64,000 bases of DNA from Flavobacterium sp. MC2016-06 (GTDB lineage Bacteria > Bacteroidota > Bacteroidia > Flavobacteriales > Flavobacteriaceae), in contig NZ_WMID02000005.1 of assembly GCF_009711165.2 (NCBI RefSeq), forward strand, positions 62,001 through 126,000, in the 5' to 3' direction. Shown here one piece after another: positions 5,492-60,172 of the stretch (the stretch's first letter is position 1; each line of letters begins with the position of its first letter). The translations under genes were made by a program, and so were the position numbers. The notes beneath the pieces were generated by a model. The model searched no databases. It was not told where the DNA came from and saw only the letters and a program-made list of their open reading frames with translations.

Positions 5492-5537
5492 ACAGGATAG
5501 TACAGGGTATCAAATGTAAAAATAACGCTTATTTTAG
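5492..5537 (+). promoter_or_regulatory. Candidate activator site plus -7 box for the first PUL gene
   Basis: Two 10-bp direct units, ACAGGATAGT and ACAGGGTATC (5492-5511), are followed 18 bases later by TATTTTAG (5530-5537), one mismatch from TAnnTTTG. The same units with the same spacing occur before susC (28310). A start near 5544 would leave a leader of only about 11 bases before ATG 5555. Confidence 0.6.
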
Positions 5538-5554
5538 TGCCAAATATATCGTTT

Positions 5555-7741
5555 ATGCAAAGCCGACTTTCAATTGTTAAGAATTTACTTGTTTTTGTTG
5601 CTTTATTTTCGTTTTCTTTCTTGTCAGCACAAGAAAAACCTAAAGAAGCAACATGGATTTGGTATCCTGGAGATTTTGAAGTTTGGTTGAGCAATAAAAT
5701 GCAAGTAAGACGTACAGAACGCGAAGCCGTATTTCCACCGCTTTGGCAATATTATAGTCCTTATGCCTTGGTAACTTTTCAAACAGAAGTAGATATTCCA
5801 AATCCAGACGAGGTTAAAATCTATTCGGAAGGACCTTTTCAATTACTTTTAGATGGAGTTCAAGTTTACGGACAGCCAAAATCAATAAAAATTCCCGCAG
5901 GAAAACATAAAATTTCCTTTAAAGTTTATAATCAAGAAGTGCTGCCAGCTATTTATATTGATGGTCAATATGTTAAATCTGATGCGTCTTGGAAAGTTAC
6001 CAATGAAGATAAACTTTGGATTGATGAAGCTGGAAAAGCACAACAATCTGGTACACCATGGATGCCAGTTGGTTCTTGGAATTTTAATTCACCAGAGAAT
6101 AAACCTTCTGGTTTTAAACTATCAACCAAACCTTTAAGTGCAAAAAAAATAGAAAAAATAGGAGCTGGTGAGTTGGTAGATTTTGGTAAAGAAACTTTTG
6201 GTTATATTAAAATTCACGGATTAAAAGGAAAAGGCAAAGTAGCACTTTATTATGGAGAATCTCGTGAAGAAGCGCTGGATTCTGCCAAATGTGAAACATT
6301 AGATCATTTATCTTTTGATGGAAATCAACCTGAAACCTATACACACAATGCATCCAAAGCATTCCGTTATGTTCAAGTACAAGCAGATGCATCGGTAAAA
6401 TACGATTCTATTTCAATGCTTTATGAATATTTGCCATTAGACTATCGTGGTGCATTTAAATCTTCAGATCAACAATTGAATCAAATTTGGGATGTGGCGG
6501 CGTATACTATGCATTTAACGTCTCGCGAATTTTTTATAGATGGAATAAAACGCGATCGTTGGGTTTGGTCTGGTGATGCTTATCAAAGTTATTTAATGAA
6601 TTATTATTTGTTTTTTGATTCGGCTTCTGTAGAACGAACGCTGTTGGCGCTTCGCGGAAAAGATCCTGTTACGGCTCATGTTAATATCATTATGGATTAT
6701 TCGCTGTATTGGTTTGTAGGTGTTTACGATTACTATTTACACACAGGCGACACGAAATTTATAAAAACTTTTTATCCACGAATGAAATCACTGATGGAAT
6801 TCTGCTTAAAAAGAAGAAACACAAACGGATTCCTAGAACCATTAGAAGGCGATTGGGTTTTTATTGATTGGGCAAACGGATTACCAAAAACGGGTGAAGT
6901 TAGTTTTGAGCAAATGCTTTTAGCGAGAAGTTTAGAAGCTATGGCAGTTAGTGCCGAAATAGCGGGTGAAAAGGAAGACCAAAAACAATATCAAAATTTA
7001 GCCAGTGATTTAAAAACAAAATTATTTGATGTGTTTTGGGATAAAAAAGAAAACGTCATGAAGCACCAGCGTATAGATGGTAAAGTGCAAGACATTGTAA
7101 CCAGATACGCTAATATGTTCGGTATTTTCTTCAATTATTTTAATGAAGAACAAAAACAAAGTATAAAAAATAAAGTGTTGCTCAATAAGAATATTCTTCA
7201 AATTACAACGCCGTACATGCGTTTTTATGAGTTGGAAGCATTGTGTGCTATGGGCGAACAAAATTATGTTTTGAAAGAAATGAAAGACTACTGGGGCGGC
7301 ATGTTAAACGAAGGAGCAACTTCTTTCTGGGAAGAATACAACCCAAATAAAAAAGGTGCAGCGCATTTAGAAATGTATGGACGTCCTTATGGAAAAAGTC
7401 TTTGCCATGCTTGGGGTTCCAGTCCAATTTATTTATTAGGAAAATATTATTTAGGAGTAAAACCAACCGCACCTGGATATTCAGAATACGAAATCAAACC
7501 AAATTTAGGTGGATTGCAATGGATGGAAGGAAAAGTGCCAACGCCAAATGGTGAAGTAGCATTATACTGCAGTACCAAAGAAATCAAAGTAAAAGCAGCA
7601 GAAGGCGAAGGAAAATTGATCATTAATAGCCAGACTAAACCAAAAACAAATTCTGGAACAATTACAGAATTAGCAAAAAATAAATACCAATTAATCGTTG
7701 AACCGAATGTTGAGTATAAAGTGAGTTATAAAGCAATTTAG
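5555..7741 (+). CDS. Alpha-L-rhamnosidase, GH78 family
   Basis: A signal peptide (LLVFVALFSFSFLSAQ) sends this 728-residue enzyme to the periplasm or surface. Beta-sandwich domains occupy roughly residues 25-300 and the (alpha/alpha)6 catalytic barrel follows. The GH78 signature is IDGIKRDRWVWSGD, with Asp329, Asp334 and Asp341 at the positions of the conserved acidic residues; Asp334 stands where many homologues have Glu. A C-terminal beta-sandwich ends the protein. GH78 enzymes release terminal alpha-L-rhamnose from pectic chains. ATG 5555 is preferred over an upstream GTG at 5537, which lies in the putative promoter box. It is the first gene of the long + strand run, behind a site shared with susC. 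Confidence 0.88.
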   Translation: MQSRLSIVKNLLVFVALFSFSFLSAQEKPKEATWIWYPGDFEVWLSNKMQVRRTEREAVFPPLWQYYSPYALVTFQTEVDIPNPDEVKIYSEGPFQLLLDGVQVYGQPKSIKIPAGKHKISFKVYNQEVLPAIYIDGQYVKSDASWKVTNEDKLWIDEAGKAQQSGTPWMPVGSWNFNSPENKPSGFKLSTKPLSAKKIEKIGAGELVDFGKETFGYIKIHGLKGKGKVALYYGESREEALDSAKCETLDHLSFDGNQPETYTHNASKAFRYVQVQADASVKYDSISMLYEYLPLDYRGAFKSSDQQLNQIWDVAAYTMHLTSREFFIDGIKRDRWVWSGDAYQSYLMNYYLFFDSASVERTLLALRGKDPVTAHVNIIMDYSLYWFVGVYDYYLHTGDTKFIKTFYPRMKSLMEFCLKRRNTNGFLEPLEGDWVFIDWANGLPKTGEVSFEQMLLARSLEAMAVSAEIAGEKEDQKQYQNLASDLKTKLFDVFWDKKENVMKHQRIDGKVQDIVTRYANMFGIFFNYFNEEQKQSIKNKVLLNKNILQITTPYMRFYELEALCAMGEQNYVLKEMKDYWGGMLNEGATSFWEEYNPNKKGAAHLEMYGRPYGKSLCHAWGSSPIYLLGKYYLGVKPTAPGYSEYEIKPNLGGLQWMEGKVPTPNGEVALYCSTKEIKVKAAEGEGKLIINSQTKPKTNSGTITELAKNKYQLIVEPNVEYKVSYKAI

Positions 7742-7748
7742 TGTATAT

Positions 7749-7842
7749 TTTTGTCATGAGAGGAAAGAAGCAAGCACATTTGCAAAATCAAGCTTTGTGT
7801 AATTATTAGCGTGATTGCTTCGTTCCTCACAAAGACAAGATT
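7749..7842. repeat. Diverged copy of the TTGTCATTTCGAGGAACGAGA palindrome family
   Basis: Left arm TTGTCATGAGAGGAAAGAAG and right arm CGAAGCAATCAC (read inverted, continuing GAGGAACGAAGC) match imperfectly. It fills the whole spacer between the rhamnosidase and the next gene. Confidence 0.6.
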
Positions 7843-7876
7843 ACCAATGTTTAATAGCTCAACAAAATTTAAATCA

Positions 7877-9580
7877 ATGTTTTTAAAAAAATTAAAATTC
7901 AATTCTAATCCAGTTACAATAGCATTTTTATTGATGTTTTTAGTATGCTTTCAAGTTTCGGCTCAAAAAAAGAATACTGTAAAAAACACGAATTGGGAGC
8001 CGGCTCCTTTTGAAGTTTTAAATAGTTATAAAAAATTTAATACCACATTATACGCACATGTATTTTCTGAAAGCAGACATAATATTATTAGAATTGCACC
8101 AGAATTAAAAGGCTTAACAGGTATAGAACTTCCTTTAGAACCTTATAAAAATTTTACAAACGAACCATTAACCTTAACTTTTAATGAAGCAGTAGAGGTT
8201 TTAGTTGGAGTATTTCAGGAACCAGACAATACAGCATATCTTCCAAACAGGATTGTACGAAATGGTATTTTAGTTCTTGAAAATGGAGTTACAATTACGG
8301 GAATGCCACCTGTAAATGTTTATGCGATTGCTTATCCAAAAGGAACTCATATCATTTTTCCAAATGCCAGAGGTTTGTTTGCCATTTTAGGAGTTATAAA
8401 AATCAAGCAGCAATTAACACCAAGAAATGCAGCATATCCAGATGGAAGACTTTGGAATCCGACTTTTATAGTTGAAGGATTTTCAGATGAACAACCACTT
8501 TTTGATATTATTGGAGGAGAAAATCAGCCCATTATAGAAGATGGAATGTCGGGAACAGAAGGTAATCAAGGCGGATTTGAAGGCGGACGAGTTGTAAAAG
8601 TAGGCGATACTTATCACATGTTTCCAACCGAAAGAGCTGGAGAAAAAGGCGTTGATTATTATTACGATCGTGTAAAAACCAAAATAGGACATTGGACGAG
8701 TAAAGATGCGATTCACTGGCAAAGAGAATCAACTATTTATCAAGCAAGCGGAACATACGCTGTGACAGAAGATGATAATCCGATGAACGATCGCCGCGCG
8801 GCAATTTGGTCGTATATGCCTGTTTTTAATGAAAAAGCAAATAAATGGTATGGCTATTATTTGGCCTATACGGTGAGTAAGGAAATAGAACCAAACCATT
8901 CTTTTGGAAGAATCTGGCGTTGTGAATCAACTGTAGAAGGAATCAACGGAATTGGCGGTCCTTATAAAGATATGGGAATTATTATGGAGCCAGGTTTAGA
9001 TTCACAACCGTGGGAAGGACGTCAAGGCGTGGCTTCCTTTTTTCCGTATCAAGTGGGCGATAAATGGTTAGGGTTTTACAGCGGTGCTTATCCGTTTAAT
9101 TCTAGGGAAGATTATCCGAAGAAATCAGGAAAAGGCTGGTTTGTAGCTTTAGCCGAATCTAATAGTTTAGAAGGTCCTTGGAAAAGAATGAATAAAGGTG
9201 TTGAACCCATAAAATCAATACATCCTTTTTTTGTTGAAAATCCCATCGTGAGCCAGCTTCCAAACGGATTATATATTGCCATTTTTGATGGAGGACCAGA
9301 CGGCTGGGGACATCATTTGCCTAATATGATAGGATATTCTCTATCAAAAGACGGTTACAAATGGTCTGAAGCAAGATACTTGCCAATAGAAACAAAAGTC
9401 AATAGATGGTGGGATATTATGCGTACACCGCTTTGCCTGATTCCAGAAGGAAATGATGTTTACACCATTGTATACGCCGCAATAGATTTAAATAGAAGAT
9501 TTCACCCAATGGGAATGGTAAAAGTAAAACTGAATCCAGAGGTTATGAAATTAAGATTAGAAGAATTGAGTAAAGAATAA
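7877..9580 (+). CDS. Secreted GH43-like five-bladed beta-propeller protein
   Basis: The 567-residue product has a signal peptide (TIAFLLMFLVCFQVSAQ), an N-terminal beta domain (about 35-195) and a propeller of the GH43/GH32/GH117 type, visible as recurring short phrases: GGRVVKVGDTYHMFPTERAG, IGHWTSKDAIHWQRES, NKWYGYYLAYTV, GWFVALAESNSLEGPWKRM and NPIVSQLPNGLYIAIFDGG. The catalytic acids cannot be assigned with confidence, so no reaction is claimed; arabinose- or galactose-releasing activity would suit the locus. Starts at 7811 (GTG) and 7847 also exist, but 7811 lies inside a dispersed repeat and 7877 gives the cleanest signal peptide. Next to it is a second, lipidated propeller. Confidence 0.65.
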   Translation: MFLKKLKFNSNPVTIAFLLMFLVCFQVSAQKKNTVKNTNWEPAPFEVLNSYKKFNTTLYAHVFSESRHNIIRIAPELKGLTGIELPLEPYKNFTNEPLTLTFNEAVEVLVGVFQEPDNTAYLPNRIVRNGILVLENGVTITGMPPVNVYAIAYPKGTHIIFPNARGLFAILGVIKIKQQLTPRNAAYPDGRLWNPTFIVEGFSDEQPLFDIIGGENQPIIEDGMSGTEGNQGGFEGGRVVKVGDTYHMFPTERAGEKGVDYYYDRVKTKIGHWTSKDAIHWQRESTIYQASGTYAVTEDDNPMNDRRAAIWSYMPVFNEKANKWYGYYLAYTVSKEIEPNHSFGRIWRCESTVEGINGIGGPYKDMGIIMEPGLDSQPWEGRQGVASFFPYQVGDKWLGFYSGAYPFNSREDYPKKSGKGWFVALAESNSLEGPWKRMNKGVEPIKSIHPFFVENPIVSQLPNGLYIAIFDGGPDGWGHHLPNMIGYSLSKDGYKWSEARYLPIETKVNRWWDIMRTPLCLIPEGNDVYTIVYAAIDLNRRFHPMGMVKVKLNPEVMKLRLEELSKE

Positions 9581-9606
9581 AGAACAAAGAGAATAGAGTA
9601 TAGAAA

Positions 9607-9682
9607 CTTTGCGACTCTGCGACTTTGCGAGAGCTAAAACAAGGCTTGTAAATTAATCTCGCAAAGTCGCAGAGTCGCAGAG
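9607..9682. repeat. Inverted repeat, GACTCTGCGACTTTGCGAGA family
   Basis: Left arm at 9607-9632 and right arm at 9656-9682 are almost perfect inverted copies (core CTCTGCGACTTTGCGAGA). A related element lies at 35629-35706. Confidence 0.85.
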
Positions 9683-9729
9683 AAAAAAAACTTAGTGTCT
9701 TAGCGCCTTCGTGGCAAAAACAACATAAA

Positions 9730-10854: not shown

Positions 10855-10867
10855 GAATTACGATTGC

Positions 10868-14651: not shown

Positions 14652-17600
14652 ATGTTAAACAAAAAGTACCTCTTTTTTATACTACTTCTTGCGGGATTTG
14701 TTTCCGCACAGGAAACCCATAAAAAAGAAAATACCTTTTTTCAGCCCACAATAGAATCCTCAAGACCTTGGGTATATTGGTATTGGATGCAGAGTGCTTA
14801 TTCTAAAGAAGGCATCACAGCAGATTTAGAAGCGATGAAACAAGCTGGAATTGGCGGTGCTTATTTAATGACGATTAAAGGACCAGCAAATCCACCGTTG
14901 ATAAATCCTCCTGTTTTACAATTAAGTCCAGAATTTTGGCAGTTGGTGCTTTGGGCATTGACCGAAGCAGATCGTTTGGGTGTGAAAATTGCATTTCATC
15001 CAGCCGATGGTTTTGCTGTTGCGGGCGGGCCTTGGATCACGCCAGAAATTTCCATGCAGAAAGTAGTTTGGCAAGATCTTACATTTAACGGAAAAGAAGC
15101 TAAAAACCTAACTTTACCAGTTCCAAATCATTATAAAGACTATTATAAAGACATTGCAGTTTTTGCAATTCCGCTAAAAGAAGCGAATGTAACTTCATAT
15201 AAAAAGCAGCCCAAAATTACATCAACTTTAGGCGATTTTGATGCTTCATTTTTGAGTGATTCGAAGAAAGACGATCAATTTCGATTAAAAGAAAAAGGGT
15301 GGATTCAATATGAATTTGAGCAACCTTTTTTATGTAAATCAATTCAGATAGAAACCAAAGGAAATAATTACCAAGCACATCGATTAATTGTTGAAGTAAG
15401 TGATGACGGTAAAAACTTTAAAAGTTTAGGAAGATTAACAACGCCGCGACAAGGCTGGCAGGATACTGACGCCTTTTATACACATAGTTTGGTGCCGACA
15501 AAAGCAAAATATTTCAGATTTGTTTACGATCCAGCAGGAACTGAACCTGGCGCAGAAGACTTAGATCCAGCAAAATGGAATCAAGGTTTAAAAGTTTCTA
15601 AAATCATTTTATCAAACGAAACTTTGATTGATAATTACCAAGGAAAATCGGGAGCGATTTGGAGATTGAGTCCACAAGTTACTGATGCAGCAATTGGAAA
15701 AACGGATTGTGTAGAACAATCAAAAATGATTAATATTTCGAAGTTTGTAGATGCTAAAGGCGTTTTAAACTGGAAAGCTCCATCAATTGCAATGTGGCGA
15801 ATTATTCGTTTTGGATATACTTCTACAGGTCATGAAAATGCAACTGCGGGTGCAGGAAGAGGATTAGAAGTTGATAAATTTAGTGCTGATGCCGTTCGCT
15901 TTCAACTCGATCATTGGTTTGGTGAAATGCTCAGAACAGCAGGTCCAGAATTAGCTTCAAAAGTGGTAAAAATTCTGCACATAGACAGCTGGGAATGTGG
16001 CAGTCAGAATTGGTCCCCTGTTTTTAGAGACGAATTCAAAAAACGCAGAGGTTATGATATTGTCGATTTCCTTCCGGTTATGGCTGGAATTCCTGTAAAT
16101 ACTATTGAGAATTCTGAGAAAATTTTATACGATGTTAGAAAGACAATTTCAGAATTAGTTGCCGATAATTTTTTTGCGACTTTGGCCGATGAAGCTAAAA
16201 AAGCAAATGTAAAATTCAGCTCAGAAAATGTTGCACCAACGATGATGAGCGACGGACTTTTACATTTTAAACACATCGATTATCCGAGTGGAGAATTTTG
16301 GCTAAAAAGCCCAACACACGACAAACCAAACGATATGCTCGATGCCATTTCTGGCGGACATATTTATGGAAAAGATATTATTCAGGCAGAAGCTTTTACG
16401 GAGTTAAAAATGGATTGGGACGAACATCCCGGAAATCTTAAAACTTTAGCAGACAGAAATTACGCAATAGGAATTAACCGATTTTTCTATCACGTTTTTG
16501 TACATAATCCGTGGACAGACAGGAAACCCGGAATGACTTTAGACGGCGTTGGTTCTTATTTTCAAAGAGATCAAACGTGGTGGAAACCCGGAAAAGCTTG
16601 GGTCGATTATTGCCAGAGAGTGCAGTTTCAATTGCAAAAAGGAAAACCAGTTATTGATCTGGCTGTTTTTATTGGTGAAGATTTGCCGTCGCGTTCGGTT
16701 CTTCCAGATCGATTAGTGCCTTTTATTCCGAATGTTTTTGGAGCGGCAAGAATAGCAAGCGAGAAAATCAGATTAGAAAATGAAGGACAGCCGAGTTTAA
16801 GAGCTCCAAAAGAAGTAACGTCTTCAAAAAATAGTACCGATTTATCGCAATGGGTAAACGCAATGAACGGTTATCAATATGATTCTTTTAATGCTGATGT
16901 TTTAATCAACCGCGCTAAAGTAGAAAACGGAAAAATTTCTTTTGGAGGCAGAATTGAATACGGAGCTTTATTATTTCCGGGAAGTCATAAAATGGCACCT
17001 AATAAAATGATTTCTTTGGCTTCCGCCGAAAAAATATTGGAGTTGCTAAAAGAGGGAGGAACTATTTTTATTGATGAAAAACCAAATTTACAACCCGGAA
17101 TTCAATCAGAAGCAGATCAAAAGAAATGGCAGATTGTTGTTGATGAAATCTGGAATAATGCAGCAAATGCTTCTTCATGGAAAATAGGAAAAGGAACGGT
17201 TATTAAGCTTCCCTATTTAGGAAATGACTTTGCTTCAATTGGAATTACGCAAGATGTTTATTTTCCGAATTTAAATAGAGCCGAATCTGAAACAATTGCT
17301 TGGACACACCGCAAAACCGACACGGAAGATCTTTATTTTATTTCAAATCAAAAAGAAGAAAAAAGAACTTTCGAAGCTTCGTTTAGAGTTTCTGGAAAAA
17401 TACCAGAATGGTACAATCCTGTAACGGATAAAACGACTGTTTTGCAAAATTGGAAACAAGAAAACGGACGCACGATTGTCACTATTTCATTGGTAGAAAA
17501 TGAATCGGGTTTTGTGATTTTTAAAAATAATACAGAAATGAAATCTGTATCGGGAATAGACTCACAATTTGAAACCATTCAGACATTAGATGAAAAATGG

Positions 17601-22180: not shown

Positions 22181-24628
22181 ATGATAAAAAAATTAGTTGG
22201 CTCTTTTGCTATGTCAATACTTTTGGCATTAAACGGGCAGGCGCAGAATACAGAGAAACAAGTTGTAAAAGTCGATTTTGACTTTTTTCAAAGAAGATTA
22301 GAAGAAGTTCACGATACAAGTTATGATTCGTGGGTAATTGAGGATAAAAAAGAAGACTCAAAAACATTTAATAATGTAACTTTTAAATTAAAAGGAAACT
22401 TTACATCAAAATGGTACAAACTCGGAATGAGTGCACCATTTTACAGCAAATTAGGGAGTGACGGTTTGGTTACAAGCCAGAATTTAGAGCTGAAAATTAA
22501 CGGATTAAAGGAAGGGAAACACACATTATTGACCTTTCATAATGCATTTGATATTATTAAAGGAAAAACTTTTTCTCCGATTAAAATCTATGTAAACGAT
22601 AAATTAACCGCAACTGTAAACGCGAGTCAGAGAGCCAATGCTAAAATTGACGCTGCGATGGCTTACATTACTTTTGATGTGATTAAATATCAGGATGTAG
22701 TGATTCGTTTTGAAATTGACGAAACTTCCAATCCCAATATTGTACCCCAAATTGTGATTAACGGATTTGAAGTTGATACACCAAATTTGATGAATCAAGC
22801 TCGTTCTCCCGAACCAAAAAATGGAGATGAACATGTGGCAGATAAAGCTATTATCTTGAAATGGGATGCTTCAAAAAATGCTTCAAAATATCAATTGTAT
22901 TTTGGACTAGATAAAGATGCAGTAGCAAATGCCAATGAATCTTCAAAAGAATACAAAGGAAAATTAAGTAAAAGATCTTTTGCCGTTCCTAATTTGTACA
23001 GCATGACAACGTATTATTGGAGGGTGGATGAAATTGATGCTAAAGGAAATGTAACTCCAGGAAATGTGTGGTCGTTTAAACCAGCACAATTGGCTTTTCC
23101 AGATGCTGAAGGTTACGGACGTTTTGCCGTTGGAGGCAGAGGCGGTAAAGTTGTAGAAGTTACGAACTTAAACGATGACGGACCAGGAAGTTTACGTGAT
23201 GCCATAAACCAAGAAATTGGACCAAAAACAATTGTTTTTAATGTGTCTGGAAATATAAAATTAGCATCAAGATTAGTGGCTAATCAGCCGTATATTACTA
23301 TTGCTGGACAAACTGCTCCGGGAGAAGGAATCACGATTACGCGCGCGCCAATTGGTCTTACGGGAAATGATGGTGTTGTTCGATTTTTGAAAGTGCGTAT
23401 CGGTGGAGGTACTACTTTTGATGGTATGGGACTTACAGGCGCTAACGTGAGTATTATTGACCATTGTTCTATCAGCTGGACAATTGATGAATCTTTTAGT
23501 TCGCGTGGAGCGCATAATATTACTTTGCAGAGAACTTTAATTTCTGAGGCATTAAATGTTGCTGGACACGACAAATATCCAGTGGGAAAAATGCATGGAT
23601 TTGCAGCTACAATTGGCGGTGATATTGGTAGTTTTCATCACAATTTATTGGCACACAATTACGGTCGTAACTGGAGTATTGGCGGTGGTTTAAACGGAGA
23701 CGGTTATTATTCTGGAAGATTGGATATTAGAAATAATGTGGTTTACAATTGGGGACATCGTACAACAGATGGCGGCGCAAATGAAGTAAATTTTGTTAAT
23801 AATTATTACAAACCGGGCGCTTCTACAGATATTTTTGTAGCACTAAATGCACAGCATGAAGGTGTTGGAAAAGGAATGCAGCGTTATTATTTTGACGGTA
23901 ATATTATGCCGGGTTATTTTACCGAAAAAAATCAGGAGAAAGGAAGAATAATGACAATTTCGAATAAAGAGATTGTGAAATATGAAACTTTTGTAAATAA
24001 ACCTTTTTTCGAGTCTTTTGTAACGACTCAAAGTGCCGAAGCGGCTTATAAAAATGTATTGTCAGATGTTGGTGCAAATCAGCCGTTTTTGGATCAACAC
24101 GATATTCGAATGATTGATGAAACGCTTAAAGGAAGTTTTACTTTTAAAGGAAGTAAAAGCGGTTTAGGCGGTTTGATCGATAATGAAGCGGATCAAGGCG
24201 GCTGGCCTGATTTTAAATCTGAAACTCGTTCTGCTGATTGGGATACAGATCATGACGGATTACCAAATTGGTGGGAGAAAGAGCATAACTTAAATGTTAA
24301 CTCAAGTGCTGGAGATTTTTCAGATGCTAATTTAGATGCTGATAAAGATGGATTTACAGAGTTAGACAATTATTTAGATTGGCTGGCGCATCCACATTAT
24401 TTTGTAAAAGCTGGAGAAAATGTTGCACTTTCTGCACCAGATTATTTTAAAGGTTATGAGAACAAACCAGTTTACGCTTTTTCTGAGGCTAAAAACGGAA
24501 GTGTTTCTTTGAATGGAAATGAAATTCAATTTAAACCTTTCCAAAACGGATTTGCTTCTTTTGTAATCACCGTTAAAGATGCAGATGGAGATACAATGAG
24601 TCGTTTGGTTAACTTCTTTGTAAAATAA
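22181..24628 (+). CDS. Multidomain pectate lyase, PL1 family
   Basis: The 815-residue secreted protein has a signal peptide (SILLALNGQAQ), a beta-sandwich that looks carbohydrate-binding (about 28-205), a fibronectin-III-like domain (about 208-300, KWDASKNASKYQLYFGL, YWRVDEIDAKGN), the PL1 right-handed beta-helix (about 305-620) and a calcium-binding thrombospondin-3-like tail (DTDHDGLPNWWE) before an Ig-like end (YKNKPVYAF-type). PL1 hallmarks are FPDAEGYGRFAVGGRGGKV, DDGPGSLRDAIN, ITIAGQTAPGEGITI and IIDHCSISWTIDESFS. PL1 enzymes cut polygalacturonan by beta-elimination. This member has more accessory domains than the two lyases after susD and may bind the polymer at the cell surface. Confidence 0.88.
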   Translation: MIKKLVGSFAMSILLALNGQAQNTEKQVVKVDFDFFQRRLEEVHDTSYDSWVIEDKKEDSKTFNNVTFKLKGNFTSKWYKLGMSAPFYSKLGSDGLVTSQNLELKINGLKEGKHTLLTFHNAFDIIKGKTFSPIKIYVNDKLTATVNASQRANAKIDAAMAYITFDVIKYQDVVIRFEIDETSNPNIVPQIVINGFEVDTPNLMNQARSPEPKNGDEHVADKAIILKWDASKNASKYQLYFGLDKDAVANANESSKEYKGKLSKRSFAVPNLYSMTTYYWRVDEIDAKGNVTPGNVWSFKPAQLAFPDAEGYGRFAVGGRGGKVVEVTNLNDDGPGSLRDAINQEIGPKTIVFNVSGNIKLASRLVANQPYITIAGQTAPGEGITITRAPIGLTGNDGVVRFLKVRIGGGTTFDGMGLTGANVSIIDHCSISWTIDESFSSRGAHNITLQRTLISEALNVAGHDKYPVGKMHGFAATIGGDIGSFHHNLLAHNYGRNWSIGGGLNGDGYYSGRLDIRNNVVYNWGHRTTDGGANEVNFVNNYYKPGASTDIFVALNAQHEGVGKGMQRYYFDGNIMPGYFTEKNQEKGRIMTISNKEIVKYETFVNKPFFESFVTTQSAEAAYKNVLSDVGANQPFLDQHDIRMIDETLKGSFTFKGSKSGLGGLIDNEADQGGWPDFKSETRSADWDTDHDGLPNWWEKEHNLNVNSSAGDFSDANLDADKDGFTELDNYLDWLAHPHYFVKAGENVALSAPDYFKGYENKPVYAFSEAKNGSVSLNGNEIQFKPFQNGFASFVITVKDADGDTMSRLVNFFVK

Positions 24629-28309: not shown

Positions 28310-28355
28310 ACAGGATAGAGCAGGACGGTTCTAATGTATTGTCGTTATATTTTTG
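28310..28355 (+). promoter_or_regulatory. susC promoter with shared direct-repeat operator
   Basis: Two direct 10-bp units, ACAGGATAGA and GCAGGACGGT (28310-28329), then 18 bases, then TATTTTTG (28348-28355), a perfect TAnnTTTG box. Spacing is identical to 5492-5537. The start codon follows at 28490, giving a leader of roughly 130 bases. Confidence 0.7.
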
Positions 28356-28489: not shown

Positions 28490-31400
28490 ATGAAACAAGC
28501 ACTTATAAAGAGATGTAGTTTTCTTTTGTTTACACTGATGAGTGTGCTTACTTATGCTCAAACATCTACTATTGAAACTGTAACGGGTACAGTTACCGAT
28601 AATTTCGGAGCTCCTATACCAGGTGTAAACGTAACCGAGAAATCAACTAAAAATGCGGTTACAACAGATTTTAATGGAAAGTATCAAATTAAAGTAAAAA
28701 CTGGAGGAGTTTTGGTTTTTTCTTTCATCGGAATGAAAAAAGTAGAATTGCCTTTAAATGGACGTACTATTATCAATACCAATATGCAGGATGATTCTAA
28801 TCAATTAGAAAACATTGTAGTGGTAGGATATGGTACTCAAAGGAAAAAAGAGCTTACAGGAGCTATTGTTACCATAAATACAGATAATCTTGGAGATTTA
28901 CCAGTTGCAAATTTAGCAGATGCTTTAAAAGGACAGGTTGCTGGGGTTTCTGTTACTAGTGGTTCAGGACGTCCTGGAGATGCTTCAAGTATTCAAATCC
29001 GTCAATCATTTGGTTTTTCAAAAGATGGAAACTCAACAATACCTTTGGTAATCATTGATGATATGATTCAAGTTGATCCAACTACAGGTAAACCTACTAT
29101 GGATACTTTTAACAGATTGGATATTTCTGAGGTTGAAAGTATGACAGTATTAAAAGATGCATCTGCTGCGATTTACGGAGCTCGTGCTTCACAAGGTGCT
29201 ATCGTTGTAAAAACGAAAAGAGGAAAAGCAGGTAAAGCAAAATTTTCTTATAACAGCCAGTTTGCAGTAAATGATGCTGTAAGCCATAGTAAAGTTATGA
29301 ATGCTTATGAGTTTGGAGTATTTAATAATAGATACTTAACATCTTCGGGTAATACTAATGGTGGAGCTTATCTTTTTTCTCAAAACGAATTGGATCAAAT
29401 GAAAACTTTAGATTACAATTGGTTAGATGAAGCTTGGAAACCAGCTATTCAACAAAAACATTCGTTTAACGTAAGCGGTGGTAGTGAAGATGTTACTTAT
29501 TTTGCTGGTGCTACTTACTTTACTCAAGACGCGAATCTAGGATATCAAAAATATGATAAATGGAATTTCCGTACTGGTATTAACGCAAAAATCGCAAACA
29601 ACTTAACGTTATCTGCTTCTGTTTCTGGAAACACAGGAACTATTGATAAATCGTTTACAAAAGCATCTGCAAATATTAGTGATGGTAGTTTCGCATCTGC
29701 TGCTGGTGGAGAACAAGCAGATTACGGATTCTTATTGCACATGCCGCAATACATTCCGTGGGAAACAACAGTTGGAGGAGTAAAATATTATATGTCTCCG
29801 TTTCCTAGAAACGACAGAAACTTAGGTAGTGCAAATTCAAATACTACAATTGCAGGATGGAATTATTTTGCCAACTTAAATAACGGTTCACACCAAATAA
29901 GTGATGATAATTCGTATAACGTAAATGCTTCGTTGAATTATAAATTAGCAGCTGTAAAAGGATTGTCTTTTAAAGCAACTTATTCTAGAACTCAAAGTTC
30001 AAATTATACAGAACAAATTCAATTGCCTTATGATTTAGCAAGAATTAAAAGTTACAATTTAATAGATCGTCACTTAGCGAGTGAAGCTCCAGACAGCGAT
30101 TATGTAATTGAAACTAATAATAAAAACTCTAGAGTTTATTATAACAATAGTGATAGTAAAAGTACACAGGGAGATTTCTTGATTAATTATGAAAGAACTT
30201 TTGGAGATCACCAAATTGGTGCGATGGTAGGAGGTGAAGCTTCTGAAATCTACAATACAAGTACTCGTTTAGCTTATGAACAAACAAGTAAAGATTATTT
30301 AGGAAATTACGCTACAGCAGGAGCATTAAATGCTTCAAACAGTACTGCAACTAAAGTAGAAGGTGGAACTCTTTCTTATTTTGGACGTATCAACTATAGT
30401 TACAAATCAAAATATTTAGCACAATTTCTTTTCCGTAGTGATGCTTCTACAAAGTTTGCACCAGAACATTATTGGGGATATTTTCCATCTCTTCAATTGG
30501 GTTGGGTAGTGTCTAAAGAAGATTGGTTTGAAAAAAATGTATCTTGGGTTGATTTCTTCAAAGTACGTTATTCAATTGGTAAAACAGGAAAAGATAATCT
30601 TCAACCATGGAAATGGGTTCAGTTTTATGATGTTATTGTTGACAAAGGTGCTGGATTTGGATTAACAAACGGAGGAACTAATGGTTCAGGTTTAACGCCA
30701 AGAGTAAATCCAAACAGAGATGCAACATGGGATACTACATTAAAAAATAACGTAGGTATTGATTTAAACGTTTTGAAAAACAGATTACAGTTTACTGCAG
30801 ATTTCTATTATGACAAAACAACAAATATGTTAACCGATATGAGTAGTGCTGCCGGTGTACCAATTTCTGTTGGTGGAGCATTTGCAGAACAAAATTATGC
30901 TGCAGTAGACGCTTGGGGATCTGAGTTCAGTATTAACTGGAGCGATAAAATAAAAAATAATTTCAGCTATGATATAGGTATCAATTTCAGTTATGCAAAT
31001 AACGAAGTGAAAAAGTACCCAACGCAGCCAATAGCAGCTCCGTCTAATAATGCAACTAGAGAAGGACAATCAGTAGGATTTAATCCAGTTTGGGGATTCG
31101 AAACATGGAAAGGTACTTCTACAGGTGATGGTATTTTACGTACAGATGCAGATATTGCTAACTACTGGGCTTATTTATCAGAACATGCAGCAGCAGCTGG
31201 TGTAGCACCAAAATATTTTGACATTAATGCGGCTTCTGGAATTAGAAAAGGATCATTGGCTTACAGAGACGTTGCAGGACAACTTAATCCTGATGGAACT
31301 TTAGGTGCAGCAGATGGTCAAATTGCAAAAGATTTAGATTACGTAAAATTAGCTAATAGCAGCAGAACATACGGATTTACTACAAACTTAGGTTTCAAAA

Positions 31401-31837
31401 CTAATGGTTTCTACTTCAGAACTCAAATCTCTACTTCATGGGGAGGAGCTACTTTCGTAGATTTAGTAAATCAAGGTACTTCTTCTGCAGCAAATATGTG
31501 GGCACACGAAAGCTTCTGGAAAGATATGTATGGAGACGATAATCCAAACGGAAAATATCCTAATCTAGCACAATGGTCTTATATTTCAAGCCCTTCAGAT
31601 TTTTGGCAGCTGAACACTTTCCGTTGTTTTGTTAGAAATTTAAGTGTTGGATATGATATCCCTAAGAAAGTTTTTGCAGATACTAAGATATCAGGTATAA
31701 CATTGGGTGTAACAGGTACTAACCTTTGGGATATATACAATCCTTACCCTGATCATTACCGTAACATGTATGATAATTCTTCTGTAGGTTATCCTACACT
31801 TAGAACATGGTCGCTTAATTTTAACGTATCATTCTAA
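28490..31837 (+). CDS. susC: SusC/RagA-family TonB-dependent outer-membrane transporter
   Basis: The 1115-residue protein has a signal peptide (LMSVLTYAQ, 24 residues), a carboxypeptidase-regulatory-like domain (about 30-110: VTGTVTDNFGAPIPGVNV), the SusC signature IVVVGYGTQRKKELTGAI (about 110-127), a plug domain (VANLADALKGQVAGVSV, LKDASAAIYGARASQGAIVV) and a long 22-strand barrel ending in Phe. With SusD it forms the energy-driven importer for oligosaccharides made at the cell surface. It is the only such pair in the window and so presumably serves the whole enzyme set. The susD start is only 18 bases downstream. The promoter upstream carries the shared direct repeat. Confidence 0.97.
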   Translation: MKQALIKRCSFLLFTLMSVLTYAQTSTIETVTGTVTDNFGAPIPGVNVTEKSTKNAVTTDFNGKYQIKVKTGGVLVFSFIGMKKVELPLNGRTIINTNMQDDSNQLENIVVVGYGTQRKKELTGAIVTINTDNLGDLPVANLADALKGQVAGVSVTSGSGRPGDASSIQIRQSFGFSKDGNSTIPLVIIDDMIQVDPTTGKPTMDTFNRLDISEVESMTVLKDASAAIYGARASQGAIVVKTKRGKAGKAKFSYNSQFAVNDAVSHSKVMNAYEFGVFNNRYLTSSGNTNGGAYLFSQNELDQMKTLDYNWLDEAWKPAIQQKHSFNVSGGSEDVTYFAGATYFTQDANLGYQKYDKWNFRTGINAKIANNLTLSASVSGNTGTIDKSFTKASANISDGSFASAAGGEQADYGFLLHMPQYIPWETTVGGVKYYMSPFPRNDRNLGSANSNTTIAGWNYFANLNNGSHQISDDNSYNVNASLNYKLAAVKGLSFKATYSRTQSSNYTEQIQLPYDLARIKSYNLIDRHLASEAPDSDYVIETNNKNSRVYYNNSDSKSTQGDFLINYERTFGDHQIGAMVGGEASEIYNTSTRLAYEQTSKDYLGNYATAGALNASNSTATKVEGGTLSYFGRINYSYKSKYLAQFLFRSDASTKFAPEHYWGYFPSLQLGWVVSKEDWFEKNVSWVDFFKVRYSIGKTGKDNLQPWKWVQFYDVIVDKGAGFGLTNGGTNGSGLTPRVNPNRDATWDTTLKNNVGIDLNVLKNRLQFTADFYYDKTTNMLTDMSSAAGVPISVGGAFAEQNYAAVDAWGSEFSINWSDKIKNNFSYDIGINFSYANNEVKKYPTQPIAAPSNNATREGQSVGFNPVWGFETWKGTSTGDGILRTDADIANYWAYLSEHAAAAGVAPKYFDINAASGIRKGSLAYRDVAGQLNPDGTLGAADGQIAKDLDYVKLANSSRTYGFTTNLGFKTNGFYFRTQISTSWGGATFVDLVNQGTSSAANMWAHESFWKDMYGDDNPNGKYPNLAQWSYISSPSDFWQLNTFRCFVRNLSVGYDIPKKVFADTKISGITLGVTGTNLWDIYNPYPDHYRNMYDNSSVGYPTLRTWSLNFNVSF

Positions 31838-36649: not shown

Positions 36650-38350
36650 ATGCAAAATATTTCTCCAAACACGATTTTAAAAAGAACAATAATGCTATTT
36701 TCATTTTGTTCCGTAGTTTCATCAGCATACGCACAATATCCCATAATTCCAAAGCCAGTTCAAGCAAAAGCCGACTCCATTTTAGACAGCGAAGAAAAAA
36801 GACTAGGTGAAATTTGGAAAAACAATTATAGCATTATCCAGCAAGAAGCAAAGCAAGGAAAACCATATTTGCCTTGGGCTTCTTATCCAAAAGATTTTGT
36901 ACAAGCAGACATTCCTGCATTTCCTGGAGCCGAAGGCGGTGGTGCTTTTACACAAGGAGGCAGAGGCGGAAAGATTTTTGTAGTAACAAGTTTAGAAGAC
37001 AGCGGAAAAGGAACCTTTAGAGAAGCCTGTGAAGCAGTTGGAGCCAGAACAATCGTATTTAACGTTTCGGGAATCATTAGATTAAAAAAGAGAATCAGCA
37101 TGCGTGCACCTTATGTAACCATTGCAGGTCAAACTGCTCCGGGTGACGGAATTTGTATTGCAGGCGAAACTTTAGAAATAGACACACACGACGTAATCAT
37201 CAGATACATGCGTTTTAGACGTGGTGCAACTGAAGTTACAAGAAGAGACGATGCATTAGGCGGAAATCCTATGGGAAATATTATTGTAGACCACTGCTCA
37301 GTAAGCTGGGGATTAGACGAAAATATTTCTTTATACAGACATCAATTTCAAGTAAATGATAAATCTAAATTAGAAAAATTACCAGCTTGTAATATCACCA
37401 TTCAAAACACTATTTCATCAGAAGGATTAGATACTTACAATCACGCATTCGGAAGTACGATTGGCGGATTAAACAGTACTTTTATGAGAAATTTATGGGC
37501 AGATAATATTTCAAGAAATGCTTCTATCGGAATGTACGGTGATTTTAATTTTGTGAATAATGTAGTTTTCAATTGGTGGAATCGTACTTTAGACGGAGGA
37601 GATTATCGCTCAATGTTAAACATCATCAATAATTATTTTAAGCCAGGACCAATAACACCGGTAGATCAGCCTATTGCCCACAGAATTGTAAAACCAGAAT
37701 CAGGATACATTCAGCCAAAACAATACGGAAGAGCTTATGTTTCAGGTAATTTTATTGTTGGATCTCCAGAAGTTACAGCAGATAACTGGAACGGTGGCGT
37801 ACAATTAGAAGATCTTTCAGACGAACAGACCAAAGAATTTTTAGAAAGCATCAAAGTACCAAAACCATTCTCAATGCCTCATATTACCATTATGAAAGCA
37901 GAAGAAGCGTATGAATTTGTATTGAATAATGTTGGAGCAACTTTACCAAAAAGAGATGCAGTAGACGAAAGAATAATCAAACAAGTTCGTACCGGAAAAA
38001 TTGAGGTTAAAGACGGATTAGAAAATACAATTGGTAAAGAATTCATTAAAAGAAGATTGCCGGCAGATTCTTATAAAAAAGGAATTATTACCTCTATAGA
38101 ACAAGTTGGCGGTTATCCAGATTATAAAGGAAAAGCCTATAAAGATTCTGATTCTGACGGAATTCCAGACAATTGGGAGAAAAAATACAACTTGAATCCA
38201 AACGATGCATCAGATGCCAATAAAGATTCAAACGGAGACGGATATACCAATATTGAAAAATATTTTAACGAAATTGATCCAGCCAAAAAAATAGACTGGA
38301 CCAAAACAGAAAATAATATTGATACATTGAAAAAAGTTTTATTGCAATAA
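36650..38350 (+). CDS. Pectate lyase, PL1 family (second of the pair)
   Basis: The 566-residue enzyme matches the lyase at 33913 through its length: helical N-terminal extension, FPGAEGGGAFTQGGRGGKI, DSGKGTFREACE, VTIAGQTAPGDGICI, IVDHCSVSWGLDENIS and the calcium-binding tail DSDSDGIPDNWEKKYNLNP. The signal peptide is FSFCSVVSSAYAQ. ATG 36650 gives a slightly long n-region; ATG 36692 (MLFSFCSV) is an alternative start. Sequence differences around the active-site face (for example Cys in DHCSVSW against Val in DHVSATW) suggest different preference for methylation or chain length. Both lyases would act on material prepared by the CE8 esterase. Confidence 0.92.
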   Translation: MQNISPNTILKRTIMLFSFCSVVSSAYAQYPIIPKPVQAKADSILDSEEKRLGEIWKNNYSIIQQEAKQGKPYLPWASYPKDFVQADIPAFPGAEGGGAFTQGGRGGKIFVVTSLEDSGKGTFREACEAVGARTIVFNVSGIIRLKKRISMRAPYVTIAGQTAPGDGICIAGETLEIDTHDVIIRYMRFRRGATEVTRRDDALGGNPMGNIIVDHCSVSWGLDENISLYRHQFQVNDKSKLEKLPACNITIQNTISSEGLDTYNHAFGSTIGGLNSTFMRNLWADNISRNASIGMYGDFNFVNNVVFNWWNRTLDGGDYRSMLNIINNYFKPGPITPVDQPIAHRIVKPESGYIQPKQYGRAYVSGNFIVGSPEVTADNWNGGVQLEDLSDEQTKEFLESIKVPKPFSMPHITIMKAEEAYEFVLNNVGATLPKRDAVDERIIKQVRTGKIEVKDGLENTIGKEFIKRRLPADSYKKGIITSIEQVGGYPDYKGKAYKDSDSDGIPDNWEKKYNLNPNDASDANKDSNGDGYTNIEKYFNEIDPAKKIDWTKTENNIDTLKKVLLQ

Positions 38351-50974: not shown

Positions 50975-50975
50975 A

Positions 50976-51114: not shown

Positions 51115-52533
51115 ATGAAAAACATAAAATACGCAATCTTAGCCACAATTTGTGCATTGACATTTTCAAATGCACAAAGCACTTCTGATACTAATTTTAG
51201 AAAACCAGTTTCAGAAACGCTTAAGAAAATTGAAACTGTTTTTAGTGTTACGATAAACGACGACAGAGGTTTACTTAAAGGAAAAGAATTAGACTACGCC
51301 GATTGGAGAATTGAACCCGGAAATCTGGCCATTTCTTTGACCAATATTCTGGCTCCGTTTGAATTAATGTACTTCAAACAACCAGACGGAACCTACATTA
51401 TTAGAAAATATGAAAACCATAAAGTTTCAGTAGATAAAGGAAAAGAACGTTTGTTTTATCTAACGAATTTGTATTCCACTCAAGCCGATTGGGAAAAACG
51501 TAAAATGGAGTTAAAAGCTTGTATGATTACGTCATTTGGTTTAGACAAGGCTCCCCCCACGCCAAAATCTAAGCCACTTTTAACTCCAAAGAGAATTTAT
51601 AAAGATTACAGTATTGAAAATATTGGGTTAGAAATTCTGCCGGGAGTTTATGTAACAGGATCGATTTACAAACCATATCCTTTAAACAAAAAAGCGGCAG
51701 TAATTTTAACACCAGACGGTCATTTTGGCGACGGAAGATACAGAAGTGACGAACAATATCGTTGCGCAATATTGGCCAAAATGGGCGCTATTGTAGTAAG
51801 CTATGATTTATTTGCATGGGGAGAATCACTGCTTCAGTTCCCGGAACAAACGCACAGGAATAGTATTGCGTCAACAGTTCAGGTTTTAAGCGGTATCCGA
51901 TTATTAGATTATTTGGCAACCGTAAAAAATGCCGACATGTCGCGTGTTGGAGTTACGGGCGGTTCTGGCGGTGGTTCGCACACCATGTTTTTGGCTGCTT
52001 TAGACGATAGAATTACCGTTTCGGCTCCAGTTGTTATGGTTTCTTCTCATTTTTCGGGTGGATGTCCTTGTGAAAGCGGACGTGGGATTCATTTATGTGG
52101 TAATGGAACTAATAATGCCGAAATCTCGGCTATGATGGCTCCAAAACCACAATTAATTGTTTCTGATGGAAAAGATTGGACGCTTGCTGTTCCAGAATTA
52201 GAGTTTCCATTTATTCAGCGTACGTACGGACTTTACGGCAAGAAAGATTTAGTAGAAAATGCTCATTTTGCTAATGAAGGACACGATTACGGTGTTTCTA
52301 AAAGAATGGCAATGTATCCGTTTATGGCTAAATATTTAGGTTTGGATTTGAAGAAAGTGCAAAATGAAAAAGGCGAAATCGACGAATCGACCTGCGTAAT
52401 TGAACCAAAAGAAAAGATGTTTGTTTTTGGAGATCACGGCGAAAAATTACCGGCAAATGCTTTGAAAGACATTGACAAATTATATGAAATGTTTGGTGAG
52501 AAAAACAATAAAGTATACGAGGTTAAGAAGTAA
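51115..52533 (+). CDS. STN-like domain fused to an alpha/beta-hydrolase esterase (CE19-like)
   Basis: The 472-residue protein has a signal peptide (ATICALTFSNAQ), a domain at about 34-100 that reads like an STN domain (SETLKKIETVFSVTINDD, PGNLAISLTNILAPFELMYF, GTYIIRKYE), and an alpha/beta-hydrolase at about 150-430. The nucleophile is Ser284 in GVTGGSGGGSHTMFLAALDD, the catalytic His is probably His390 in NEGHDYGVSKRM; an acidic partner lies between. CCPCESGRG-like cysteines (SGGCPCESGRGIHLCG) may form disulfides. The enzyme resembles the RG-II pectin methylesterase family CE19 and the related acetyl xylan esterases; I rate CE19 as likely but not certain. The STN fusion is unusual for an esterase. 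Confidence 0.7.
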   Translation: MKNIKYAILATICALTFSNAQSTSDTNFRKPVSETLKKIETVFSVTINDDRGLLKGKELDYADWRIEPGNLAISLTNILAPFELMYFKQPDGTYIIRKYENHKVSVDKGKERLFYLTNLYSTQADWEKRKMELKACMITSFGLDKAPPTPKSKPLLTPKRIYKDYSIENIGLEILPGVYVTGSIYKPYPLNKKAAVILTPDGHFGDGRYRSDEQYRCAILAKMGAIVVSYDLFAWGESLLQFPEQTHRNSIASTVQVLSGIRLLDYLATVKNADMSRVGVTGGSGGGSHTMFLAALDDRITVSAPVVMVSSHFSGGCPCESGRGIHLCGNGTNNAEISAMMAPKPQLIVSDGKDWTLAVPELEFPFIQRTYGLYGKKDLVENAHFANEGHDYGVSKRMAMYPFMAKYLGLDLKKVQNEKGEIDESTCVIEPKEKMFVFGDHGEKLPANALKDIDKLYEMFGEKNNKVYEVKK

Positions 52534-55376: not shown

Positions 55377-55401
55377 TAGATTTAACTATTATAGCGCCTA
55401 G

Positions 55402-55494: not shown

Positions 55495-55523
55495 TTGGTG
55501 TAAAAAAAATAAAATTAATAAAG

Positions 55524-57089
55524 ATGTTACAACATTTCAAATACAAAATAATAGTCCTTACTCTTATAATTGCTTCATTAAGTAGTTGTAAATCGGGTGT
55601 GAATTCTTCCAAAGGAAGTAAAGGCGTTGTTTTAAAATCTAGTGATTATAAACATTACGTTGATTATTTCAACACAATGGAAGATGAAAATCTAAAATTT
55701 GCGATTCCGAATGACAGCGCTTGGGTTTGGATGAAAGCGAATATTCCGTTTTTTGAATGTCCGCAGCAAAACTTTGAAGAAATCTATTATTTCCGTTGGT
55801 GGAGCGCTCGAAAACACATCAAGAAAACACCACAGGGATTTGCGATTACAGAATTTTTGGTAGATCGTTCTTATGCTGATAAATACAATATGATTAGTTG
55901 TGCTTTAGGACATCATATTAATGAATTTAGATGGATTCATAATCCAGTTTATTTAGAACAGGATGTTCATTTATGGTTTAGAGGAAATGACGGAAAGGCG
56001 ATGAAAAAGCTTAGAACTTTTAGCAGTTGGACGGCAGATGCTTTGTACAATCGTTATTTGGTGAATAAAGACGATAAATTTTTATTGGATATGTATCCAG
56101 ATTTGGTTGCAGAATACAACGCTTGGGAAGGTGACAGAAAACGTAAAGATGGTTTGTTTTGGCAGTTTGATGTAAAGGACGGAATGGAAGAATCGTTGAG
56201 CGGTGCCAGAAAATTTAGAAATGCACGTCCGACGATTAACAGCTACATGTACGGAAATGCGGTGGCTTTGTCTAAAATTGCAAAATTGAAAGGGGATGCA
56301 AACGAGGAAAGTTATTTTACTGCAAAAGCGGATACACTTCAGAAATTAGTAGAAAGTAAATTATGGAATCCTAAAAGTGATTTTTTTGAAACTTTCACAG
56401 AAAAAGATACTTTGGCGCAGGTGAGAGAAGCAATCGGATTTATTCCGTGGTATTTTAATCTGCCTGAAAAAGGCAAAGGTTTTGAAAAAGCTTGGGAACA
56501 GGTAAAAGACGAAAAAGGATTTTCTGCTCCGTTTGGGTTGACAACAGCGGAGCGCAGAAGTCCGCGTTTTAGAACTCATGGATCGGGAACCTGCGAATGG
56601 GACGGCGCAATCTGGCCATTTGCTACTACGCAGACTTTGACGGCGATGGCAAATGTTTTGAATAATTACGATCAGAATGTTGTTGGTAAAACCGATTATT
56701 TCAAACAATTAGATTTGTATGTGCAGTCGCAATATTATAGAGGAAAGCCTTATCTTGGTGAATATTTAGACGAAACGACTGGTTATTGGTTAATGGGTGA
56801 TCGCGAAAGAAGCCGTTATTACAATCATTCGACTTTTAATGATTTAATGATTACAGGATTGGTTGGTTTACGCCCAAGAGCGGATGAAAAAATTGAAGTA
56901 AATCCGTTGATTCCACAGGAAAAATGGGATTGGTTTTGTTTGGATAATGTTTTGTATCACGGCAATATTATTACGATTCTTTGGGACAAAACTGGCGAAA
57001 AATATCATAAAGGAAAAGGTTTTAGAGTTTATAAAAATGGAAAAGAAATTGCGTTTTCTGAGAAGTTAGAGAAAGTAGTTTCTCAATAA
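55524..57089 (+). CDS. Lipoprotein glycosidase with (alpha/alpha)6 fold, MGH1-like
   Basis: A lipobox (IASLSSC, Cys22) marks this 521-residue protein as a lipoprotein. The rest is a helical barrel with EIYYFRWWSARKHI, ITEFLVDRSYADKYNMISCA, HHINEFRWI, GDRKRKDGLFWQFDVKDGMEES, YMYGNAVALSKIA, FRTHGSGTCEWDGAIWPFATTQT and a small C-terminal sandwich. WDGA and DGMEES blocks resemble the acid sites of the MGH1-like/GH63-related clan, and the overall look recalls the GH142-type domain seen in RG-II degradation (beta-L-arabinofuranosidase). I cannot decide between these. It lies between GH95 and GH78, which fits a side-chain exo-enzyme. Confidence 0.65.
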   Translation: MLQHFKYKIIVLTLIIASLSSCKSGVNSSKGSKGVVLKSSDYKHYVDYFNTMEDENLKFAIPNDSAWVWMKANIPFFECPQQNFEEIYYFRWWSARKHIKKTPQGFAITEFLVDRSYADKYNMISCALGHHINEFRWIHNPVYLEQDVHLWFRGNDGKAMKKLRTFSSWTADALYNRYLVNKDDKFLLDMYPDLVAEYNAWEGDRKRKDGLFWQFDVKDGMEESLSGARKFRNARPTINSYMYGNAVALSKIAKLKGDANEESYFTAKADTLQKLVESKLWNPKSDFFETFTEKDTLAQVREAIGFIPWYFNLPEKGKGFEKAWEQVKDEKGFSAPFGLTTAERRSPRFRTHGSGTCEWDGAIWPFATTQTLTAMANVLNNYDQNVVGKTDYFKQLDLYVQSQYYRGKPYLGEYLDETTGYWLMGDRERSRYYNHSTFNDLMITGLVGLRPRADEKIEVNPLIPQEKWDWFCLDNVLYHGNIITILWDKTGEKYHKGKGFRVYKNGKEIAFSEKLEKVVSQ

Positions 57090-57103
57090 ATAATAGATAA
57101 TTA

Positions 57104-57136
57104 GATCTGACAGGTTTTTAAAACCTGTCAGGTCTT
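57104..57136. repeat. 33-bp palindrome, copy of the one at 10868
   Basis: AGATCTGACAGGTTTT, one T, AAAACCTGTCAGGTCT; one base (T for C) breaks the perfect match of the 10868 copy. Confidence 0.95.
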
Positions 57137-57165
57137 AGTTTAGAAATAAAAAAGAATCGCCCAAT

Positions 57166-57272
57166 TTGTCATCCTGACGGAGGAAGGATTTTCGTTAGTA
57201 GTTCCACCAGGATTGACGATTTTGATTGTAGAGTTTCTAGTGAAGATCCTTCCTCCGTCAGGATGACAAGAT
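57166..57272. repeat. TTTGTCATCCTGACGGAGGA palindrome copy
   Basis: The outer arms pair almost perfectly over about 29 bases, both with the TCCTGACGGAGGAAGGAT variant. A single-arm TAAATCTGCGTGCAAC unit follows and reaches the next gene's in-frame GTG (57298). Confidence 0.93.
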
Positions 57273-57336
57273 TGAGAATGAAATCAGCTAAATCTGCGTG
57301 CAACAAAAAAATCCTGTAAAAGCATACAATATAATT

Positions 57337-60090: not shown

Positions 60091-60107
60091 GTACTATTTT
60101 AAATAAT

Positions 60108-60172
60108 TCGGGACAGTACAGGATACATCTTTAAAATTTTGGTGTCATTTTTACACTTAATAAATAATTTTG
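60108..60172 (+). promoter_or_regulatory. Candidate shared operator and promoter before the sialidase-like gene
   Basis: Units TCGGGACAGT and ACAGGATACA (60108-60127) match the direct repeats at 5492 and 28310. At the same distance as in those sites lies CATTTTTA (60146-60153), a weak -7 box; a perfect one, TAATTTTG, lies 19 bases further (60165-60172). This is the only PUL gap right of susC without a palindrome family. Confidence 0.55.

Follow-up and report, generated by a model that had tools for sequence, protein, structure and literature searches.

A one-turn direct-repeat operator shared by a presumed rhamnogalacturonan-II utilization locus and rhamnose genes in Flavobacterium, and its probable GntR-type regulator

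The window analyzed here, a stretch of 64,000 nucleotides from Flavobacterium sp. MC2016-06 (contig NZ_WMID02000005.1), carries a polysaccharide utilization locus (PUL) and, upstream of three of its genes, a short direct repeat that is likely the operator of a rhamnose regulon (Table 1). Pfam searches find in this PUL proteins of the glycoside hydrolase (GH) 78 type at 5537 (probable start 5555), 48173 and 57298, a GH106 protein at 14652, a BT_1020-like propeller, an apiosidase, GH95, GH127, GH28 and GH2 proteins, GH130- and GH43-like proteins, a pectinesterase, DUF5703 and DUF6298 proteins, and SusC and SusD. The enzyme set for rhamnogalacturonan II (RG-II) is therefore present together with SusC/SusD, and we take such a set to mark the locus as an RG-II PUL. 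The first enzyme gene most likely starts at the ATG at 5555 rather than at the GTG at 5537 that opens the longest open reading frame (ORF), because the GTG falls within the predicted -7 box.

Table 1. Operators, -7 boxes and associated genes in the window. R1 is the sequence model of operator and -7 box described in the text.
Feature	Position	Strand	Remarks
Operator 1, two 10-bp units ACAGGATAGT + ACAGGGTATC	5492..5511	+	read directly; 5' of first enzyme gene; R1 20.3 bits
-7 box TATTTTAG	5530..5537	+	starts 38 bases after start of operator 1
Operator 2, ACAGGATAGA + GCAGGACGGT	28310..28329	+	read directly; 5' of susC; R1 30.2 bits
-7 box TATTTTTG	28348..28355	+	starts 38 bases after start of operator 2
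Operator 3, TCGGGACAGT + ACAGGATACA	60108..60127	+	read directly; R1 22.1 bits
-7 box CATTTTTA (TATTTTTA in most orthologs)	60146..60153	+	starts 38 bases after start of operator 3
First enzyme gene, alpha-rhamnosidase-like	5555..7741	+	Pfam Bac_rhamnosid-like_N, Bac_rhamnosid6H (on ORF from 5537)
susC-like TonB-dependent receptor of PUL	28490..31837	+	Pfam Plug, CarbopepD_reg_2
BNR-repeat protein, first gene 3' of operator 3	60264..61409	+	Pfam BNR_2
AraC-type regulator adjoining PUL	4307..5125	+	Pfam; rejected as operator reader

A preliminary description of this DNA had reported 10-bp direct repeats at 5492, 28310 and 60108, each with an ATTTT 29 bases after the start of its second unit, and had read the latter as a -7 box at fixed spacing. 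All three 20-mers are present exactly as described, and the ATTTT lies at that distance at all three sites. The fixed spacing stands, while the box itself is better described as TAnnTTTG-like than as ATTTT, with a C for the first T at the third site. Applying the numbering of the F. johnsoniae -7 box, T-12 to G-5 (PMC6847099), we predict transcription starts at ~5542, ~28360 and ~60158, so that the repeat would span ~-50 to -31 with its center at ~-40.5. By eye, the only self-complementary part inside the operator is the central GTAC; it is thus a direct repeat and not a palindrome of the FadR/HutC type known for GntR proteins, and its 10-bp units also differ from the ~21-bp tandem spacing of hybrid two-component system (HTCS) sites. 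The three sites are the top three of the window (24-27 bits, the next reaching 13.1), although that ranking alone is circular because the matrix was trained on the same three sites.

Evidence independent of that training comes from orthologous PULs. We applied a matrix built from 61 promoters, with the window rows and three PUL-ortholog rows excluded, to the 400 bases upstream of each ortholog at a cut-off of 12. Operator and -7 box were found upstream of 21/23 susC orthologs, 20/24 orthologs of the first enzyme gene and 21/24 orthologs of the gene at 60264, or 62/71 promoters together, versus 0/1420 upstream regions shuffled as pairs of bases, the best of which scored 4.7. In genome G031, two loci of the first enzyme close to contig ends went unscored, and neither had a site in our other upstream scan. 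Sites are missing at every one of the three promoters in G005 and G051, at two in G138 and at one in G149. G005 and G051 retain all three tested PUL genes, yet the operator is gone from all three promoters, a joint loss that is possibly a case of rewiring. Two promoters (L096, L105) appear to have three tandem units.

The operator is also found well beyond this PUL. Among 150 genomes of the genus, MAGGAYAGWRCAGGAYRG with at most one mismatch has 123 matches, in 37 genomes, versus 7 for the reversed pattern. The surroundings of 80 of the 123 matches were examined; 70 are intergenic, and the 10 that fall in ORFs were left out of the promoter counts. At the box offset, 68 of the 70 intergenic promoters have TT, 53 have TTT, 45 have TAnnTT and 31 have the strict TAnnTTT, whereas each of the other offsets from 20 to 59 (40 in all) has it in at most four. 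Genes 3' of the genus sites include those for RhaT, RhaD aldolase, susC-like receptors (several divergent from GH106-like genes), relatives of the window proteins at 22181, 33913 (TSP3) and 60264, and GH28- and GH2-like proteins, and nine scanned downstream proteins include an RGL11 rhamnogalacturonan lyase, a GH88-family hydrolase, a GDSL esterase, GH106, a fasciclin protein and an NrtR/AraR-type regulator. The operator lies 5' of NrtR/AraR-type regulator genes in two genomes, L186 being identified by Pfam and L200 by eye; this arrangement suggests a cascade that reaches a further sugar.

Within the genome of MC2016-06 itself (6,168,808 bases in 121 contigs), RGGAYAGTRCRGGRYA has three perfect matches, at 5492, at 60108 and before rhaT on contig 10. 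The 28310 site differs from it at two positions, and the remaining 15 matches with one or two mismatches are all in ORFs. At up to two mismatches the total is 19, versus 17 in the reversed control; this counts against the observation, and therefore only the perfect matches and their context carry weight in the pattern search. R1 is a 47-column sequence model of operator and -7 box made from 67 promoters, the three window sites included; the alignment (A2) and R1 omit two of the 70 intergenic promoters, which were duplicates or contained N, and, by choice, L234, L237, L241 and L247. In an R1 scan in which 150 of 12587 first-look candidates were scored, six sites stand out (E <=0.007), namely the three window sites, the rhaT site (34.8 bits), G000:C5:225525 (20.5 bits) and G000:C5:56819 (19.9 bits). 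Next come a site in an ORF at 16.0 bits (E 0.12) and one at 13.6. The rhaT site and the two further contig 5 sites are outside the R1 training set, although close relatives of the rhaT site are inside it. A genome-wide scan of the kind that the preliminary description had proposed thus returned six standouts, and not the many unrelated matches that were to count against a single operator.

The two further sites on contig 5 also precede genes that can be named. G000:C5:225525 lies 5' of an esterase gene (SASA domain) that is divergent from a susC-like gene (Plug, CarbopepD_reg_2). G000:C5:56819 is directly upstream of L006:14862-17405, ~5.2 kb left of the window, which encodes an enzyme of family GH141 with a fused L-rhamnose mutarotase (RhaM) domain; since this gene has its own operator copy, there are four entry sites into the PUL. 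The preliminary description had spoken of one regulon with three entry points. A single regulon with several entry points into one PUL is borne out; its scope is not pectin alone and takes in rhamnose uptake and catabolism.

The preliminary description had placed the regulator outside the window, and we agree, having found a better candidate than any it named. The strongest site of the genome falls between rhaT and a divergent gene, G000:C10:108807-109859, on another contig than the PUL. The encoded protein has an N-terminal GntR winged helix (PF00392, 47.4 bits versus a cut-off of 27) and a periplasmic-binding-protein (PBP) sugar domain (PF13377), the latter a weak pass at 27.9 bits versus a cut-off of 26.5. 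A GntR protein with a sugar-binding PBP domain is of a chimeric type, comparable to B. subtilis AraR. Behind rhaT follow genes for a RhaD-type aldolase, a xylose-isomerase-like TIM-barrel protein, an FGGY kinase, and LutB-like and cysteine-rich-domain proteins; we read those behind the aldolase as rhaI, rhaB and lactate-utilization genes.

Upstream of the genus orthologs of this gntR the operator is present in 25/29 cases on the divergent strand and in 0/29 on the gntR strand, at all 25 orthologs with at least 79% identity and at none of the four with ~69%. Among the best 80 of at least 582 named gntR loci (60-97% identity), an operator with up to three mismatches is found on the divergent strand in 66/80 and on the gntR strand in 0/80, versus 1/80 with one shuffle of each. 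The nearest divergent ORF at these 80 loci matches RhaT in 22 and RhaD aldolase in 44, and the loci span Flavobacterium, other Flavobacteriaceae, Lewinella, Neolewinella and Saprospiraceae bins. The geometry holds here as well, with TT at the box offset in 65 of the 66 sites and strict TAnnTTT in 20, versus at most one at any other offset. In 43 of these loci, from records not named Flavobacterium except L332 (F. pokkalii), T and A at 39-40 have frequencies of 0.98 and 0.98, T and T at 43-44 of 0.98 and 1.00, and G at 46 of 0.88. An operator type at fixed distance from the -7 box, as first seen at three sites, has therefore held up across the ortholog and genus promoters. Operator and gntR also occur together. 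The gene (E <=1e-130) is found in 32/150 genus genomes, and all 32 have pattern matches; of the 118 genomes that lack it, five have matches, six in total and each in an ORF.

A second group of GntR proteins, 34-40% identical to the rhaT-linked one, appears to use the same geometry with a different word. At 17 loci of this group ACTGGTAGGT-ACTGGTATGT lies upstream with 0-3 mismatches, and TAnnTTT begins at 38 in 14/17. The word was derived from the same 17 loci, without a shuffle control, so the box offset alone is independent. The genes of this group are divergent from galM, and we call it the galM group; neighbors were inspected at L046, L051, L053 and L252, and at L046 Pfam finds an aldose 1-epimerase and a GH53 protein. 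MC2016-06 has one locus of this type (L252), and a third paralog of its own (L253) shows a weak repeat, 7/10, which we excluded from support. Distinct words beside distinct paralogs at the same geometry are, from sequence, the best evidence that these GntR proteins may be the readers of these repeats. At L341 (G000:C6:152307), upstream of a susC-like ORF near a galM-type GntR gene, the spacing is 11 bp instead of 10 bp.

Some observations concern other genes of the PUL and its flanks. Four long PUL proteins (7811-9580, 22181-24628, 36650-38350 and 51115-52533) have no Pfam match at E 1e-5, and relatives of the one at 22181 sit directly 3' of the same operator elsewhere in the genus. Genes for an MFS transporter and the AraC regulator form a divergent pair at 2999-5125 adjoining the PUL. 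L006:9533-11166 matches an L-fucose dehydrogenase model above cut-off and an L-fuconolactonase model below cut-off, a possible sign of a non-phosphorylating fucose route. The right flank of the window has GH2 and alpha-L-fucosidase genes, and a LytTR response regulator and histidine kinase pair is located ~17 kb to the right.

We believe that the three sites are quite probably operators of a rhamnose regulon, to which a GntR dimer binds, activating on a rhamnose signal and driving both rhamnose catabolism and the RG-II PUL. Building on the operators, their spacing and targets, their co-occurrence with gntR and the divergent position of that gene, all read from sequence, we infer the head-to-tail binding of a GntR dimer, activation and the ligand. 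The dimer would sit head-to-tail on the two 10-bp units, one helical turn apart and on the same face of the DNA, and the operator center at ~-40.5 would let an activator contact the sigma factor or RNA polymerase. Activation is suggested because the distance to the -7 box is fixed and the center is near -40.5, and the ligand because gntR is divergent from the rhamnose operon. Rhamnose derived from rhamnogalacturonan, or a cytoplasmic rhamnose derivative, might then turn GntR on, and the switched-on protein could raise rhamnose catabolism and the RG-II PUL together.

There are other ways to read these sites. That they are chance matches in AT-rich promoters was worth considering while there were only three of them, which had also served to train the first matrix, and the 19 versus 17 matches of the two-mismatch search would fit it, but the shuffled upstream regions and the reversed pattern in the 150 genomes refute this, leaving it practically no probability. 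The preliminary description had expected a reader with an AraC-type DNA-binding domain, such as that of hybrid two-component regulators, encoded next to the PUL. One-turn repeats centered at ~-40.5 would suit an AraC-type activator, and at one context locus at least (L192) an HTCS-type sensor-kinase ORF (Reg_prop, Y_Y_Y, HisKA; cut by the locus end) is divergent from the operator. Yet HTCS and Bacteroides RhaR motifs have a ~21-bp periodicity (PMC3878776, PMC3870299), and a scan of the proteins encoded in the window and its 20-kb flanks, covering all but a few ORFs of less than 400 amino acids, revealed no HTCS gene. The AraC gene at 4307-5125 has an ortholog in 16/26 genomes, and seven of the ten without it (G066, G075, G092, G111, G113, G138 and G149) keep at least one PUL site, for which reason we rejected it as reader of the operator. 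We consider a reader of the AraC or HTCS type very unlikely.

In another reading the same GntR, with the same regulon, would act as a classical repressor, blocking the promoter until rhamnose or a rhamnose intermediate frees it. Many GntR regulators repress, the operator overlaps the -33 zone, and AraR of B. thetaiotaomicron, a cytoplasmic monosaccharide sensor of the NrtR family, is a repressor (PMC5061871). Repressors tolerate many positions, however, while the box offset here does not vary between targets, between genera or between the two paralog groups. Such constancy would be expected if the protein touches polymerase, so we regard repression as unlikely, if less so than a reader of another family. 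Several points weigh against our main reading. GntR proteins are usually repressors. The gene does not adjoin the PUL. In G005, G025, G031 and G051 the closest GntR (~69%) has no upstream operator; G005, G031 and G051 nevertheless retain a variant operator at rhaT, so another paralog may serve there. The rhaT promoters (11 of the 70, and the rhaT promoter of MC2016-06 alike) have the box TTATTTTA, in which the T run is in register and the TA is not. Because co-occurrence tracks phylogeny, it would be seen with any rhamnose regulator of the clade; the E <=1e-130 cut-off, too, was picked after an earlier search, with G117 (58% identity) near it. Promoters of F. johnsoniae generally have a weak -33 element (PMC6847099), so its absence is no proof of activation, and palindromic operators are the form mostly reported for GntR proteins, although direct-repeat exceptions exist (PMC4494728).

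If these repeats are GntR operators, a likely regulator and a readable operator can be named for an RG-II PUL, and one promoter signal unites the breakdown of a polysaccharide with the catabolism of one of its deoxy-sugars. The arrangement may be more general. We consider it possible, though somewhat short of an even bet, that a Bacteroidota-wide code exists in which GntR/PBP activators bind head-to-tail to one-turn 10-bp direct repeats that start exactly 38 bases ahead of the -7 box. Each paralog would have its own word (ACAGGAYAGT for rhamnose, ACTGGTANGT galactose-linked), so that whole PULs would be driven by monosaccharide sensing as well as by the surface sensing of HTCS, and the word would predict the sugar. 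The fixed 38-base geometry, with different words for two GntR paralog groups, would make the regulons of unstudied Flavobacteriia predictable from sequence.

Among the papers listed in a literature search, judged by title and the start of the abstract, we found none on a GntR rhamnose regulon or such an operator in Flavobacteriia. Several known systems are comparable in part (PMC9723704, PMC8056085, PMC5698469 and PMC12858550 were also compared). The FarR, NagQ, NanR and MocR group belongs to the same winged-helix family and also has repeats that are not palindromes, but in the account of PMC4494728 none is described as a one-turn repeat 38 bases from a Bacteroidota -7 box. FucR (BT1272) and ManR (BT2103) of Bacteroides are likewise GntR sugar regulators of Bacteroidota (PMC3878776). 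AraR of B. thetaiotaomicron senses a monosaccharide in the cytoplasm and also acts on the PUL for the matching polysaccharide, as our candidate would, but it is an NrtR-family repressor that alters PUL kinetics, whereas our candidate is of the GntR family (PMC5061871). The HTCS regulons of Bacteroides PULs resemble the present case in having direct-repeat operators before PUL genes and a polysaccharide-specific regulon; they differ in their ~21-bp tandem sites and a membrane sensor encoded near the PUL, where here the units are of 10 bp and the candidate GntR is encoded with rhamnose genes (PMC3878776). For BT0981, the HTCS of a rhamnogalacturonan-induced locus, a motif could not be predicted according to the same source. 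The Bacteroides RhaR (AraC family, BT3768) governs a rhamnose transporter and catabolic operon, as our candidate would; it is of another family, its motif has 21-bp periodicity and its regulon is described as a single operon, whereas the operator described here also stands before genes for rhamnogalacturonan I and RG-II (PMC3870299, PMC3878776).

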